Of a DNA stretch of 64,000 nt, positions 57,195 to 60,703 are shown piece by piece. The notes below the pieces were generated by a model, which did no database searches, was not told where the DNA came from, and was given only the letters and a program-made list of their open reading frames with translations. Both the position numbers and the translations under genes were made by a program. Source of the DNA: an uncultured Bacteroidia bacterium. GTDB lineage: Bacteria; Bacteroidota; Bacteroidia; Bacteroidales; UBA932. Position 1 is the first letter of the stretch, and the number at the start of each line of letters is the position of its first letter. The DNA lies in assembly GCA_902778855.1 (NCBI GenBank), contig CACYZM010000001.1:69838-133837 (forward strand), written 5' to 3'.

Positions 57195-58082
57195 ATCGTT
57201 CCCGTACAGGCACTTGGCAGCACCTCCCGCCATCTTTCCGTCGGAGTGGCCGACTCCGGCCACGTAGGCAATGTCCCAGTTGAACGGAACGCCGCGACGG
57301 GCGGCATCGGCCCGGCAGAACGCGAAGAAAGTCTCGCCCCGCTGGAAGCGGTTCAGACCCTGTGCATCCGCCTCCGGCGTCTGGCGCAGGGAAGACTGCC
57401 GCAGCGTGTCGGCATCGCCCAGCAGGATGGTCATTCGTTTCGCATAGTAAGCCGCCACGTCGGTCCCGATCTTTTCGACACTGTCGCCGATTCCGTAGGG
57501 ATAACCGATCGTGTCGGTCGGGAACGTGTACCAGCCGGCATTGGCCGCCACGGCCCGTTCCACTTCGGGCGTGTCGTTGAACAGCAGGTAGCGGTGGACG
57601 AACTGTCCGCCGGCCGAATGGCCGTAGATGCTGAACTTCTTCGCCTGCGAAGCGCTATGGTCTTTGAAGAAATGGAAGATCTCGCTGATGATCGGATAGG
57701 TCATCGACTCCTTGGGATTGAAGTTCCCGTCCGCATCCTGGACATTCCCCTGCTGATAGGCGATTTCGGGGAAATCCTCGTCGGTAAAGTGCGGCGTCAG
57801 CAGGATGAAACCATACTGGTCGGCCTGCGATTTCCAATGGTCGAGATAGCCGTCGGCGTTGCGGCCCATGCCGTGCATCACGATCTGGACCGGCATGGTG
57901 CGGATGTCACCGGCCGGAATGTGGTAGTAGACGTTCACCGTCTTGCCGGCAAAGGGGCCCTGGCAGGCATACGGAACCATGCCTGTCCCTTCGACGAACA
58001 GTTGTTCCTCGCCCTTGCAGCAGCTGAGCAGGACGACGACCGAAAGGACGGTCGCAGCGATTGCAGTCAATTTACGCTTCAT
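57189..58082 (-). CDS. Alpha/beta hydrolase, predicted lipoprotein
   Basis: A 297-residue exported protein with lipobox-like VVLLSCCKG near 21. The nucleophile is S156 in YGHSAGGQF; an oxyanion HGMGRNADGY is at about 70-79, and a catalytic His is likely in GVGHSDGKMAGG near the end. It resembles secreted PHB-depolymerase or feruloyl-esterase-like enzymes. The ATG at 58082 lies 11 bases inside iadA. It is last in the susCD-dcuC-iadA run. Substrate unknown. Confidence 0.78.
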   Translation of the reverse strand: MKRKLTAIAATVLSVVVLLSCCKGEEQLFVEGTGMVPYACQGPFAGKTVNVYYHIPAGDIRTMPVQIVMHGMGRNADGYLDHWKSQADQYGFILLTPHFTDEDFPEIAYQQGNVQDADGNFNPKESMTYPIISEIFHFFKDHSASQAKKFSIYGHSAGGQFVHRYLLFNDTPEVERAVAANAGWYTFPTDTIGYPYGIGDSVEKIGTDVAAYYAKRMTILLGDADTLRQSSLRQTPEADAQGLNRFQRGETFFAFCRADAARRGVPFNWDIAYVAGVGHSDGKMAGGAAKCLYGNDL

Positions 58083-59181
58083 AGACTTTCTGGCCTTTCG
58101 CATAGACACTGTGGATGGAGAGGTCTTCGTTGAGCGCCACGAAATCGGCGTCGCGGCCCACGGCGATCCGTCCCTTTTCCTTCAGCGAAAGGTTCCGGGC
58201 CGGGTTGACGGTGATCAGTTGCAGGGCCGATTCCAGCGGCAGGACACCGTTCTTGACCAGTGCGACCATCTCCTTGTAGTTGAGCGTCAGCGGGGCCGGC
58301 GTGTAGGTCACGACACCCGTTTCTGGGTCCTCGCGGCGCACGCCGCCGTGGCCATCGCTCGAGAACGTCAGGTTCGAGAGCGGCGCACCGGCTTCAAGCG
58401 CCAGGGCGACCGCCTGGTGCGCATCGACGAAGCGCGTGCCGCCGGTGGAGATATCCATCATACCGCCTTTCTTGGCGAAGTCGACACACGTGTCGAAGAG
58501 GGCCCGGGTGCGGCTGCAGTGCGTCGGCGAGATGTAGGAAATCAGCGTGGGATACTGGTCCACGATGCGGTGCAGCACGTCGATCCGGCTCTTCAGGTTG
58601 CCCAGGTGGATGTGCAGAATGCCGTGCTTGCCCGAGGTAAACCCGCCCAGGCGGACCTGGTTGATCAGGCGCAGGATCTCGAGCTCCGTCGGGAACGAAC
58701 TGCGGTCATCGCTCAGGGCCAGTTTGCAGCCGATGACCTTGTCGATGTAGATCAAATCCTCGGCCACCGAACCGGTAATCGTTTTCTCCGGCACGCCGTA
58801 ATAGCTGGTCAGCATATAGGCCGAAAGGCCTTCCGCATCGAGCGCCTTTACCTTGGCGTAGAGCGTCGACAGTTCCTTGACGAACCCGTCAGTGCCCAGC
58901 AGGCCCACGACCGTCGTCGTACCCGTGGCCGCGAGCTCCGCCTTTGTCACTTCCGGGATGAACGAAGCGAAGCCGAACTGGCCGCCGCCGCCCGTCACGT
59001 GCACGTGCTGGTCGATGAACCCCGGGCACAGGCAACGCCCCTTCAGGTCGATGACCTGAACGTCGCAACCCCGCACCGACAGCTTATCGCCGATGGCCAG
59101 AATCTTCCCCGCCGCCGTCAACACCTGCGTCTCCTCCCGCCGCTCCGGCGCGAATATCTTACAGTTTTTGAATAATTCCAT
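58072..59181 (-). CDS. iadA: Beta-aspartyl (isoaspartyl) dipeptidase
   Basis: A 369-residue amidohydrolase that cleaves beta-aspartyl dipeptides. The first metal-binding motif is GFIDQHVHVTGGGGQFG (about 54-70), followed by KHGILHIHLGN, PTHCSRTR and the catalytic Asp in FSSDGHGG. NPARNLSLKEKGRIAVG closes the beta-domain. It frees aspartate from damaged or dietary peptides. A 128-base structured repeat lies 13 bases upstream of its ATG, separating it from dcuC. Confidence 0.9.
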   Translation of the reverse strand: MELFKNCKIFAPERREETQVLTAAGKILAIGDKLSVRGCDVQVIDLKGRCLCPGFIDQHVHVTGGGGQFGFASFIPEVTKAELAATGTTTVVGLLGTDGFVKELSTLYAKVKALDAEGLSAYMLTSYYGVPEKTITGSVAEDLIYIDKVIGCKLALSDDRSSFPTELEILRLINQVRLGGFTSGKHGILHIHLGNLKSRIDVLHRIVDQYPTLISYISPTHCSRTRALFDTCVDFAKKGGMMDISTGGTRFVDAHQAVALALEAGAPLSNLTFSSDGHGGVRREDPETGVVTYTPAPLTLNYKEMVALVKNGVLPLESALQLITVNPARNLSLKEKGRIAVGRDADFVALNEDLSIHSVYAKGQKVYEA

Positions 59182-59194
59182 ATGAACGATTCTT

Positions 59195-59322
59195 GAGGGG
59201 ACTCTTCACGCTTTCCAGACTACGGACCCTACGGGTCCTATCCCTCCCAAAGCTAGCTTTGGGCCCCTCCCACTCACGGCTGCGTGGGCGCAGACGGTCT
59301 GGAAAGCGTGAAGAGTCCCCTC
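59195..59322. repeat. Inverted-repeat element with three nested hairpins (MITE-like or structured RNA)
   Basis: Perfect 26-base arms (59195-59220 and 59297-59322) enclose 76 bases. Inside are GGACCC-TAC-GGGTCC (59224-59238), an 18-base perfect palindrome CCCAAAGCTAGCTTTGGG (59246-59263) and CTGCG-TGGG-CGCAG (59280-59293). As RNA it would fold into a closing stem with three side hairpins. It fills nearly the whole gap between the dcuC stop (7 bases away) and the iadA start (13 bases away). No T-run follows either end, no open frame is present, and no target-site duplication is obvious. Confidence 0.8.
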
Positions 59323-59329
59323 CATAATA

Positions 59330-60703
59330 TTAGATAAAGAAATGAATGATCGTCAGACAGGTGACGCCGATGATCAGGGGGACCATGTTGCGCTTGGCCA
59401 GCTCCAGGGGGGAGACGCCGGCGACGCCGCAGATCGCCACGATCACGCCGGCGATCGGCGAGGTGGCGCGGCCCATGCTGGCCGCCAGCTGCATCGGCAG
59501 AATCATCTGCACGGCGGGCATCCCGATCTGCGCCGCGATGTCGGGCACCAGCGGGCCGAACGAGAAGAACGCCGCATTGCCGCTGCCCATCAGCATCGCC
59601 GCAAAGAACACCACGGCGGTTATGACGATCGAAATCGACACGCCGCCCAGGCCGATGCCCGTGGTCCCGGCCACCAGATTGTCGATGAAGCCCAGACTGA
59701 TCAGACCGCCCGAGAAAATCTCGGCCGCCACAATCAGCGTAATCACCGACGCGAACACATTGCCCATCCCCTGCCAGAACGTGCCGAACAAAGGGAAGAT
59801 CTCCTTCACGCTGCGCCGATGGATAGCCACGAACACCAGCGAAATCAGGAACGACACCAGCATCGCCACCGTCGTCGAAAGCTCGACGTGGAAAATGCCG
59901 ACATACTCCGAGAAAAACACCAGCAACAGGATCGGAACCAGCGGAAGCAGGGCGAAAATGCCCGGCACGTCCGGCCGGTCGGCTTCGTCCACCCGCTCCG
60001 TACTGTAAATCTGCTTGCCGGCGGCCAGATCGCGGCGGTCACACCAGCGGTTGTAGAAAAAGAATACCAGCATCAGGATCACCGTGGTCGGAATCACGTT
60101 CGGCATCTGGAACTTGAGGAAATACTCCACCGGACTGAGCCCGACCAGCGACGAGGCGGCCGCCGTATTGGCGGAGCCCGGCCCCTGGTCGAACAACGTC
60201 GCGGCCGATATGACCGTGAGCGCGGTCATCTTGCTCACGCCCAGATTCACCAGGATCGGATAGAGCGTAGCCACCAGCAGCAGCCCCACCCCCGCCGCGG
60301 ACGGCGTGGTGATGAACAGCAGCTGGCCGATGGGAATGGCCAGCGCGGCCGCCAGATACGGGCACTTTTTCAGGAACCCCAGCGGCTTGATGGCCAGCCA
60401 GACCAGCATGTTGGTCGCCTGGATCTTGTTCATGAAAGCCACATAGCCGCCGATGACCATAATCATCAGGCCGGCCCGGCCGAAGTTCGAGATGAACTTT
60501 TCCTCGGCAAACCGGAACACATCGAACACACCGGACCCGGTGGTCTTGGCCACGTCCGCCGGATGGAGTCCGACGATCGCGGCCAGGGCCACCATAAACA
60601 GTCCGGAGAGCAGCAGAACGCCTTGCGGATTGTATTTCCTGTACAGCAGCACCGCCGTCAGGGCGATGACCGCCACACAAACGAGAAAATAGAGGAGTCC
60701 CAT
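59330..60703 (-). CDS. DcuC-family C4-dicarboxylate carrier
   Basis: A 457-residue membrane protein with about 12 helices. SAATLFDQGPGSANTAAASS and the FFAAMLMGSGNAAFFSFGPL/ATSPIAGVIVAICGVAG segments are the paired DcuC/ArsB-like transport hairpins. DcuC exports succinate, or exchanges it, during fumarate respiration. It begins 18 bases after the susD stop. The nearby iadA, which yields aspartate, and aspA at 32 kb, which yields fumarate, fit succinate export or aspartate/fumarate uptake. Confidence 0.87.
   Translation of the reverse strand: MGLLYFLVCVAVIALTAVLLYRKYNPQGVLLLSGLFMVALAAIVGLHPADVAKTTGSGVFDVFRFAEEKFISNFGRAGLMIMVIGGYVAFMNKIQATNMLVWLAIKPLGFLKKCPYLAAALAIPIGQLLFITTPSAAGVGLLLVATLYPILVNLGVSKMTALTVISAATLFDQGPGSANTAAASSLVGLSPVEYFLKFQMPNVIPTTVILMLVFFFYNRWCDRRDLAAGKQIYSTERVDEADRPDVPGIFALLPLVPILLLVFFSEYVGIFHVELSTTVAMLVSFLISLVFVAIHRRSVKEIFPLFGTFWQGMGNVFASVITLIVAAEIFSGGLISLGFIDNLVAGTTGIGLGGVSISIVITAVVFFAAMLMGSGNAAFFSFGPLVPDIAAQIGMPAVQMILPMQLAASMGRATSPIAGVIVAICGVAGVSPLELAKRNMVPLIIGVTCLTIIHFFI

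Follow-up and report, generated by a model that had tools for sequence, protein, structure and literature searches.

A dispersed cloverleaf palindrome in a Bacteroidales genus whose arms change together and whose core flips in place

In an uncultured bacterium of the Bacteroidales, the gap between dcuC and iadA is almost filled by a cloverleaf-like palindrome which belongs to a family dispersed within the genome and among its congeners. The reading that we prefer, and to which we assign a probability of about 0.6, is that this palindrome is a dispersed, non-autonomous DNA element of the REP/MITE/RPE class which occupies operon-like junctions, has resided in these genomes for a long time, and has arms that are kept perfect by template switching. 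Bacterial palindromic repeats are normally recognised by a conserved arm sequence. In the present family the pairing of the arms is kept while their sequence drifts, the core flips in place, and the same operon junctions are occupied across species.

The copy from which the analysis started lies in a stretch of 64,000 nucleotides (the window, meaning the whole stretch that was analysed), and its features are listed in Table 1. An earlier note made from the letters of the window had described perfect inverted ends of 26 bases on an element of 128 bases as well as an 18-base perfect palindrome, and all of these are present to the base. The same note had counted three separate hairpins; the first two stand, while the third (the stem at 59269-59288) is really a pair of interleaved helices. 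From the stop of dcuC (59330) to the start of iadA (59181), both of which are on the minus strand, there are 148 bases, of which the element takes up 128, so that it does occupy nearly all of the gap. No T-run was found at the window element, and its structure exceeds what a terminator needs, as the note had also held. The fold of 59180-59340 has a minimum free energy of -82.3 kcal/mol on the plus strand (z = -9.0; no shuffle out of 200 did as well) and -86.7 kcal/mol on the minus strand (z = -8.0). The open frame of 39 codons that crosses the element at this site is probably incidental.

Table 1. Features of the window copy and its neighbouring genes (window coordinates; the covariance-model score of 148 bits was obtained in the genome of the window and is high by construction, as the window copy is included in the model)
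Feature	Position	Strand	Remark
Entire palindromic element, 128 bp	59195..59322	.	dcuC-iadA gap; covariance model 148 bits
Left arm, 26 bp	59195..59220	.	outer 59195-59211 locus-specific; inner 59212-59220 TTTCCAGAC conserved
Hairpin 1, GGACCC TAC GGGTCC, GGACCCTACGGGTCC	59224..59238	.	compensated variation among copies
Invariant unpaired segment TATCCCT	59239..59245	.	copy comparison
Hairpin 2, 18-base perfect palindrome in window copy, CCCAAAGCT/AGCTTTGGG	59246..59263	.	
Two interleaved helices	59269..59293	.	CCCAC 59269-59273 with GTGGG 59284-59288; CTGC 59280-59283 with GCAG 59290-59293
Right arm	59297..59322	.	exact reverse complement of left arm
39-codon open frame across element	59206..59325	-	ATG just past dcuC stop
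dcuC, C4-dicarboxylate carrier, upstream gene	59330..60703	-	confirmed as DcuC carrier
iadA, beta-aspartyl-peptidase, downstream gene	58072..59181	-	identity confirmed

Comparison of the copies separates the parts of the element by how they vary. The arms, with a median length of 26 bp, consist of 9 conserved inner positions and 17 outer positions that are specific to the locus. The core is near-invariant, with TATCCCT, CCCCT and TCACGG as unpaired or loop positions, and in hairpin 2 of other copies both the stem and the loop vary, with compensation. Both interleaved helices are backed by covariation, since 145 of the 175 distinct sequences have Watson-Crick pairing in all 9 pairs, whereas even 8 of the 9 pairs were reached in only 3 of 875 shuffled controls. 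The pattern across copies is CCCNN/N'N'GGG for the first helix and XXXX/X'X'X'X' for the second, for which about 20 different strand pairs occur among the 175 distinct sequences. Judged from these pairings, the two helices would make up a pseudoknot or else exclude each other as alternative hairpins; the single base between the last two strands may favour the second arrangement.

BLAST detects 11 close copies in the window genome, and a covariance model based on 26 copies detects 17. The earlier note had named the absence of any second copy among its grounds for giving up its view of the element, and with at least 11 copies in the same genome this is not the case. The search of the genome and of related Bacteroidales that the note had proposed instead returned many dispersed copies, with orthologous empty sites. 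By the covariance model the family is present in 28 of 40 congeneric genomes and in 4 of 246 other Bacteroidales genomes sampled, of which one comes from another genus within the same taxonomic family and the remaining three from different taxonomic families. A search of public genomes with the core pattern gave at least 119 stretches; all of the records listed were Bacteroidales or Bacteroidia MAGs, and the source habitats among these listed records were largely ruminant and other animal guts. Neither Rfam (at the gathering threshold) nor plasmids, phages or IMG/VR gave a match, and literature searches on Bacteroidales and Prevotella found no description of cloverleaf or palindromic repeats, which bears out the note's remark that it recognised no known family here.

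Elements of the window subfamily (A) are about 125-135 bp long. Those of a second subfamily (B, loci L233-L272) are built around a core of the same plan but have longer arms, and these arms resemble one another in several copies whose sites are unrelated. A recent local duplication is suggested by two subfamily-B copies that are almost identical and separated by about 360 bases (L254 and L256, G061:C2:74769-75248). In one further copy (L346, G029:C39:174363-174534) the core carries some tens of extra bases in the region of hairpin 2, possibly another repeat inserted into the element. The gaps of other congeners (L315, L316 and L318) contain a different short palindrome, GATTCTTCGCTTCGCTCAGAATGACA, which resembles CGTC-tagged REPs and shares an TTCGCTTCGCTC motif with hairpin 1 of one element subfamily.

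The sites that the element occupies are operon-like. With gene strands called by a score trained on genes of known strand, the flanking genes are co-directional in 46 of the 50 subfamily-A copies with confident calls, some of which share a site; the excess has P = 2e-4 against an assumed baseline of 70% and 0.02 against one of 80%. Relatives without the element have very tight junctions at places that are filled elsewhere. The murG-murC junction of G029 lacks the element and has a gap of -3 bases, pyrD and pyrF meet stop to start in two genomes without it (G061 and G023), and element-free orthologous gaps occur at five further sites. A gene for a secreted glycosidase lacks the element in eight species and contains it in six (L326, L323, L327, L329, L334 and L336), where it is located just 3' of the original start codon in the region of the signal peptide. 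The reading frame is open through the element in all six filled species and runs into the downstream gene, so that the element would, judged from the frame, either add an N-terminus of its own or force a new start inside it. Together with the occurrence of the copies in both orientations, these filled and empty orthologous sites and the dispersed copies within one genome support the option, raised in the earlier note, of a REP-like or non-autonomous mobile palindrome.

Both flanks are homologous between species at 11 shared insertion sites, one of which is the window site, shared with G029 and differing there by one compensated change. The element has long been vertically inherited at many sites, though descent and independent insertion are indistinguishable at some of the shared sites. 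The clearest case is the glycosidase gene, at which five species have the same unusually long hairpin 2 with an identical A.C mismatch, and the insertion is therefore one event. Loss can be seen as well. In the closest pair compared, which has nearly identical flanks (L303 and L304), no clean empty site was found; one of the two is instead a derivative from which the core and the right arm were lost between TTCG repeats. At murG-murC of G018 only a small hairpin is present, bearing the same arm letters, and both of these derivatives fit the instability of palindromes. A test for target-site duplication in 45 copies gave direct repeats of 6.67 versus 6.54 in mispaired controls, a result that has to be read with the age of the copies in mind, as decay is possible. 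Duplications that look suggestive by eye at start codons gave no signal above controls.

The arms change together. Among the arm pairs of 26 copies there are 224 changes on both sides versus 4 one-sided changes that still pair. At the glycosidase site, the outer arms are 62% identical and the core 95% identical, and between G000 and G011 12 of the 26 arm pairs differ, all of them on both sides and with no single changes. The closer species G000 and G029 differ mostly by single changes, which are the start of the process by which the arms change. The outer 17-mers at 24 distinct sites retain a founder consensus, AGAATTATCTGTTTCTC, with 9.0 matches of 17 versus 5.2 when shuffled (shuffled maximum 7.4), and the comparison of these letters indicates that the arms are element sequence which has drifted from a common founder. 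Inverted target duplications had been considered as a source of the arms, given their fixed length and locus-specific letters, and were rejected on this founder consensus and on the similarity of subfamily-B arms at unrelated sites.

The core also changes direction. Its orientation is opposite between species at 6 of the 11 shared sites, and relative to the genes the overall count is 25:20, flips which exclude most strand-specific RNA functions. Selection for pairing in RNA would favour G.U. Arm mismatches read in gene orientation comprise 37 G.T and 41 A.C, hence no excess of G.U in the transcribed strand, and this, taken with the core flips, argues that a DNA process keeps the arms complementary.

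Replication template switching is the most likely process of this kind. During replication the strand would fold back at the palindrome and the polymerase would copy one arm from the other, by which a mutation in one arm would be passed to its partner; the same switching would occasionally invert the segment between the arms. Arm complementarity is probably maintained in this way, and a transposase that works on the element in its folded form may have dispersed the copies themselves. Template switching accounts for double changes without one-sided intermediates, for the missing G.U signature and for the flips in place. It is reported to homogenise the arms of short inverted repeats and to invert their spacers (PMC8604942) and to maintain hairpins (PMC8794818), and the marks taken from the former study, joint arm change with spacer inversion and no RNA pairing bias, are found here. 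The spacer inversions documented for template switching in yeast are much shorter, however, involving 2-5 substitutions (PMC8604942), and the core of the element, at 76 bases, is far longer, which counts against the preferred reading.

Conservation of the core at old sites also counts against it, since in a passive element the core sequence there should have changed. The likeliest reason for it is constraint on a DNA site that works in either orientation, and a site for DNA binding or recombination would be the simplest remaining reading of this constraint. Alternatively, the core might be recognised by its shape, as folded single-stranded DNA read by an HUH-type or other enzyme, in which case the arms need only pair and their sequence is free. 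We regard this as tentative and on balance doubtful. If it were true, the family would be defined by its shape rather than by its terminal sequence, and the core would be selected in either orientation.

It is unlikely that the element is a structured RNA of operon mRNAs, such as an RNase III processing site, an mRNA-stabilising hairpin or a riboregulator, with selection on the RNA keeping the arms paired. The stable fold, the core conserved in place and the strong covariation, which includes the interleaved helices, are all what such an RNA would have, and the 46 of 50 confidently called copies between co-directional genes are probably transcribed. Set against this are the flips of the core relative to transcription at orthologous sites, the nearly even orientation overall, the missing excess of G.U and the lack of an Rfam match. 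The structured-mRNA option of the earlier note is thus weakened in so far as, at one and the same site, the core can lie opposite to transcription between species and the arm mismatches have no G.U bias; a role of the hairpin in the transcript stands as possible given that nearly all copies lie between co-directional genes. An RNA role that depends on shape only, and not on the strand, is possible.

It is improbable that a RAYT-like Y1 enzyme actively moves the element in the form of folded single-stranded DNA, with the arms remade at each move because the enzyme needs a hairpin rather than a sequence. Y1_Tnp genes over the cut-off are present in 24 of 28 element-bearing genomes and in 1 of 12 without the element (Fisher P = 6e-6, for species that are related and not independent). 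IS200/IS605 elements make no target-site duplication, and the lack of such a signal, like the occurrence of both orientations, would fit. However, in four element-bearing genomes no Y1 gene was detected, none of 20 Y1 loci has the element directly flanking the gene (one model match lies about 1.5 kb away), and double arm changes also build up at copies that have not moved. Most of the Y1 genes inspected adjoin other large palindromes of different sequence, which is a point in favour of this reading. The co-occurrence could be a lead to a candidate mobiliser, and is only a lead because the species are related and none of the 20 genes is directly flanked by the element.

The Y1 genes are themselves of note. 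Those at L381-L400 (for example L381, L385, L388, L390 and L400) are RAYT-like, encode about 300-350 aa, and number one to five per genome; most are flanked, on one side or on both, by a large nested palindrome. Hairpin sequence in the flanks is common to related genes (such as ATCGTGTGCG, ATCGGTTGCG and AGTTGATCCCC), and to judge from these sequences the genus seems to harbour several distinct RAYT/palindrome pairs.

Invertible segments are common in Bacteroidales, and an invertible DNA switch, in which a site-specific recombinase acting on the inverted arms flips the core and recombination keeps the arms identical, would explain the flips at 6 of 11 shared sites, at which both orientations occur between species. 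Such a switch is very improbable, as the arms vary among copies unlike a recombinase recognition site, except for the inner 9 bp, and the element, with its GC-rich core, lies within runs of co-directional genes and not upstream of operons. That the element merely terminates or attenuates transcription between dcuC and iadA can be dismissed despite the strong hairpin directly 3' of the dcuC stop, since the T-run that would accompany the hairpin of an intrinsic terminator is absent, the arms are far longer than needed, and other copies are found, in either orientation, at junctions unrelated to this one.

Judged on covariation alone, the element would pass as an excellent new RNA family, and it cautions against taking strong covariation in a bacterial hairpin as proof of a functional RNA. 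Its dozens of orthologous copies form a natural data set from which template-switch correction and the inversion of palindromes could be measured in bacteria, and the family is a natural record of the way in which replication errors would keep hairpins perfect.

The closest systems each share part of this description. Rickettsia palindromic elements are palindromic repeats found between genes and in frame within coding sequence (PMC10969869); compared by description, the element is likewise a dispersed palindromic repeat of roughly 100-150 bp. At one gene in six species the frame is open through it, but it differs in that nearly all copies are at gene junctions, the arms are locus-specific yet complementary, the core flips, and the host belongs to another phylum. 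REP units measure 20-40 bp, conserve the sequence of their stem and carry a tag, GTAG or CGTC (PMC3733652), and Bacteroidetes RAYT genes are reported to have atypical secondary structures at their flanks (PMC6006769). Like REP/REPIN-RAYT systems, the family consists of intergenic dispersed palindromes accompanied in most element genomes by a RAYT-type Y1 gene; unlike them, its element is 128 bp long, has unconserved arms in place of a conserved tagged palindrome, and does not flank the Y1 genes examined as a cognate repeat would. MITEs resemble it as short, non-coding elements with terminal inverted repeats and many dispersed copies, except that its terminal repeats are not common to the copies, the outer 17 bp differing and retaining only a weak founder consensus, and that no transposon that could be their parent came to notice. 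Strictly, the element is a member of none of these three classes, membership being withheld because for each of them one defining feature is lacking or unsettled. Homogenised arms and inverted spacers are shared with inverted repeats maintained by template switching, or quasipalindrome correction (PMC8604942, PMC8794818), although those cases are isolated inverted repeats of yeast or RNA genes, whereas the present repeats form a dispersed family and have a conserved core. This, then, is a family of cloverleaf palindromic repeats not described before, akin to the REP/MITE/RPE kind, and the joint evolution of its arms is due to a process at the level of DNA, most likely template switching.
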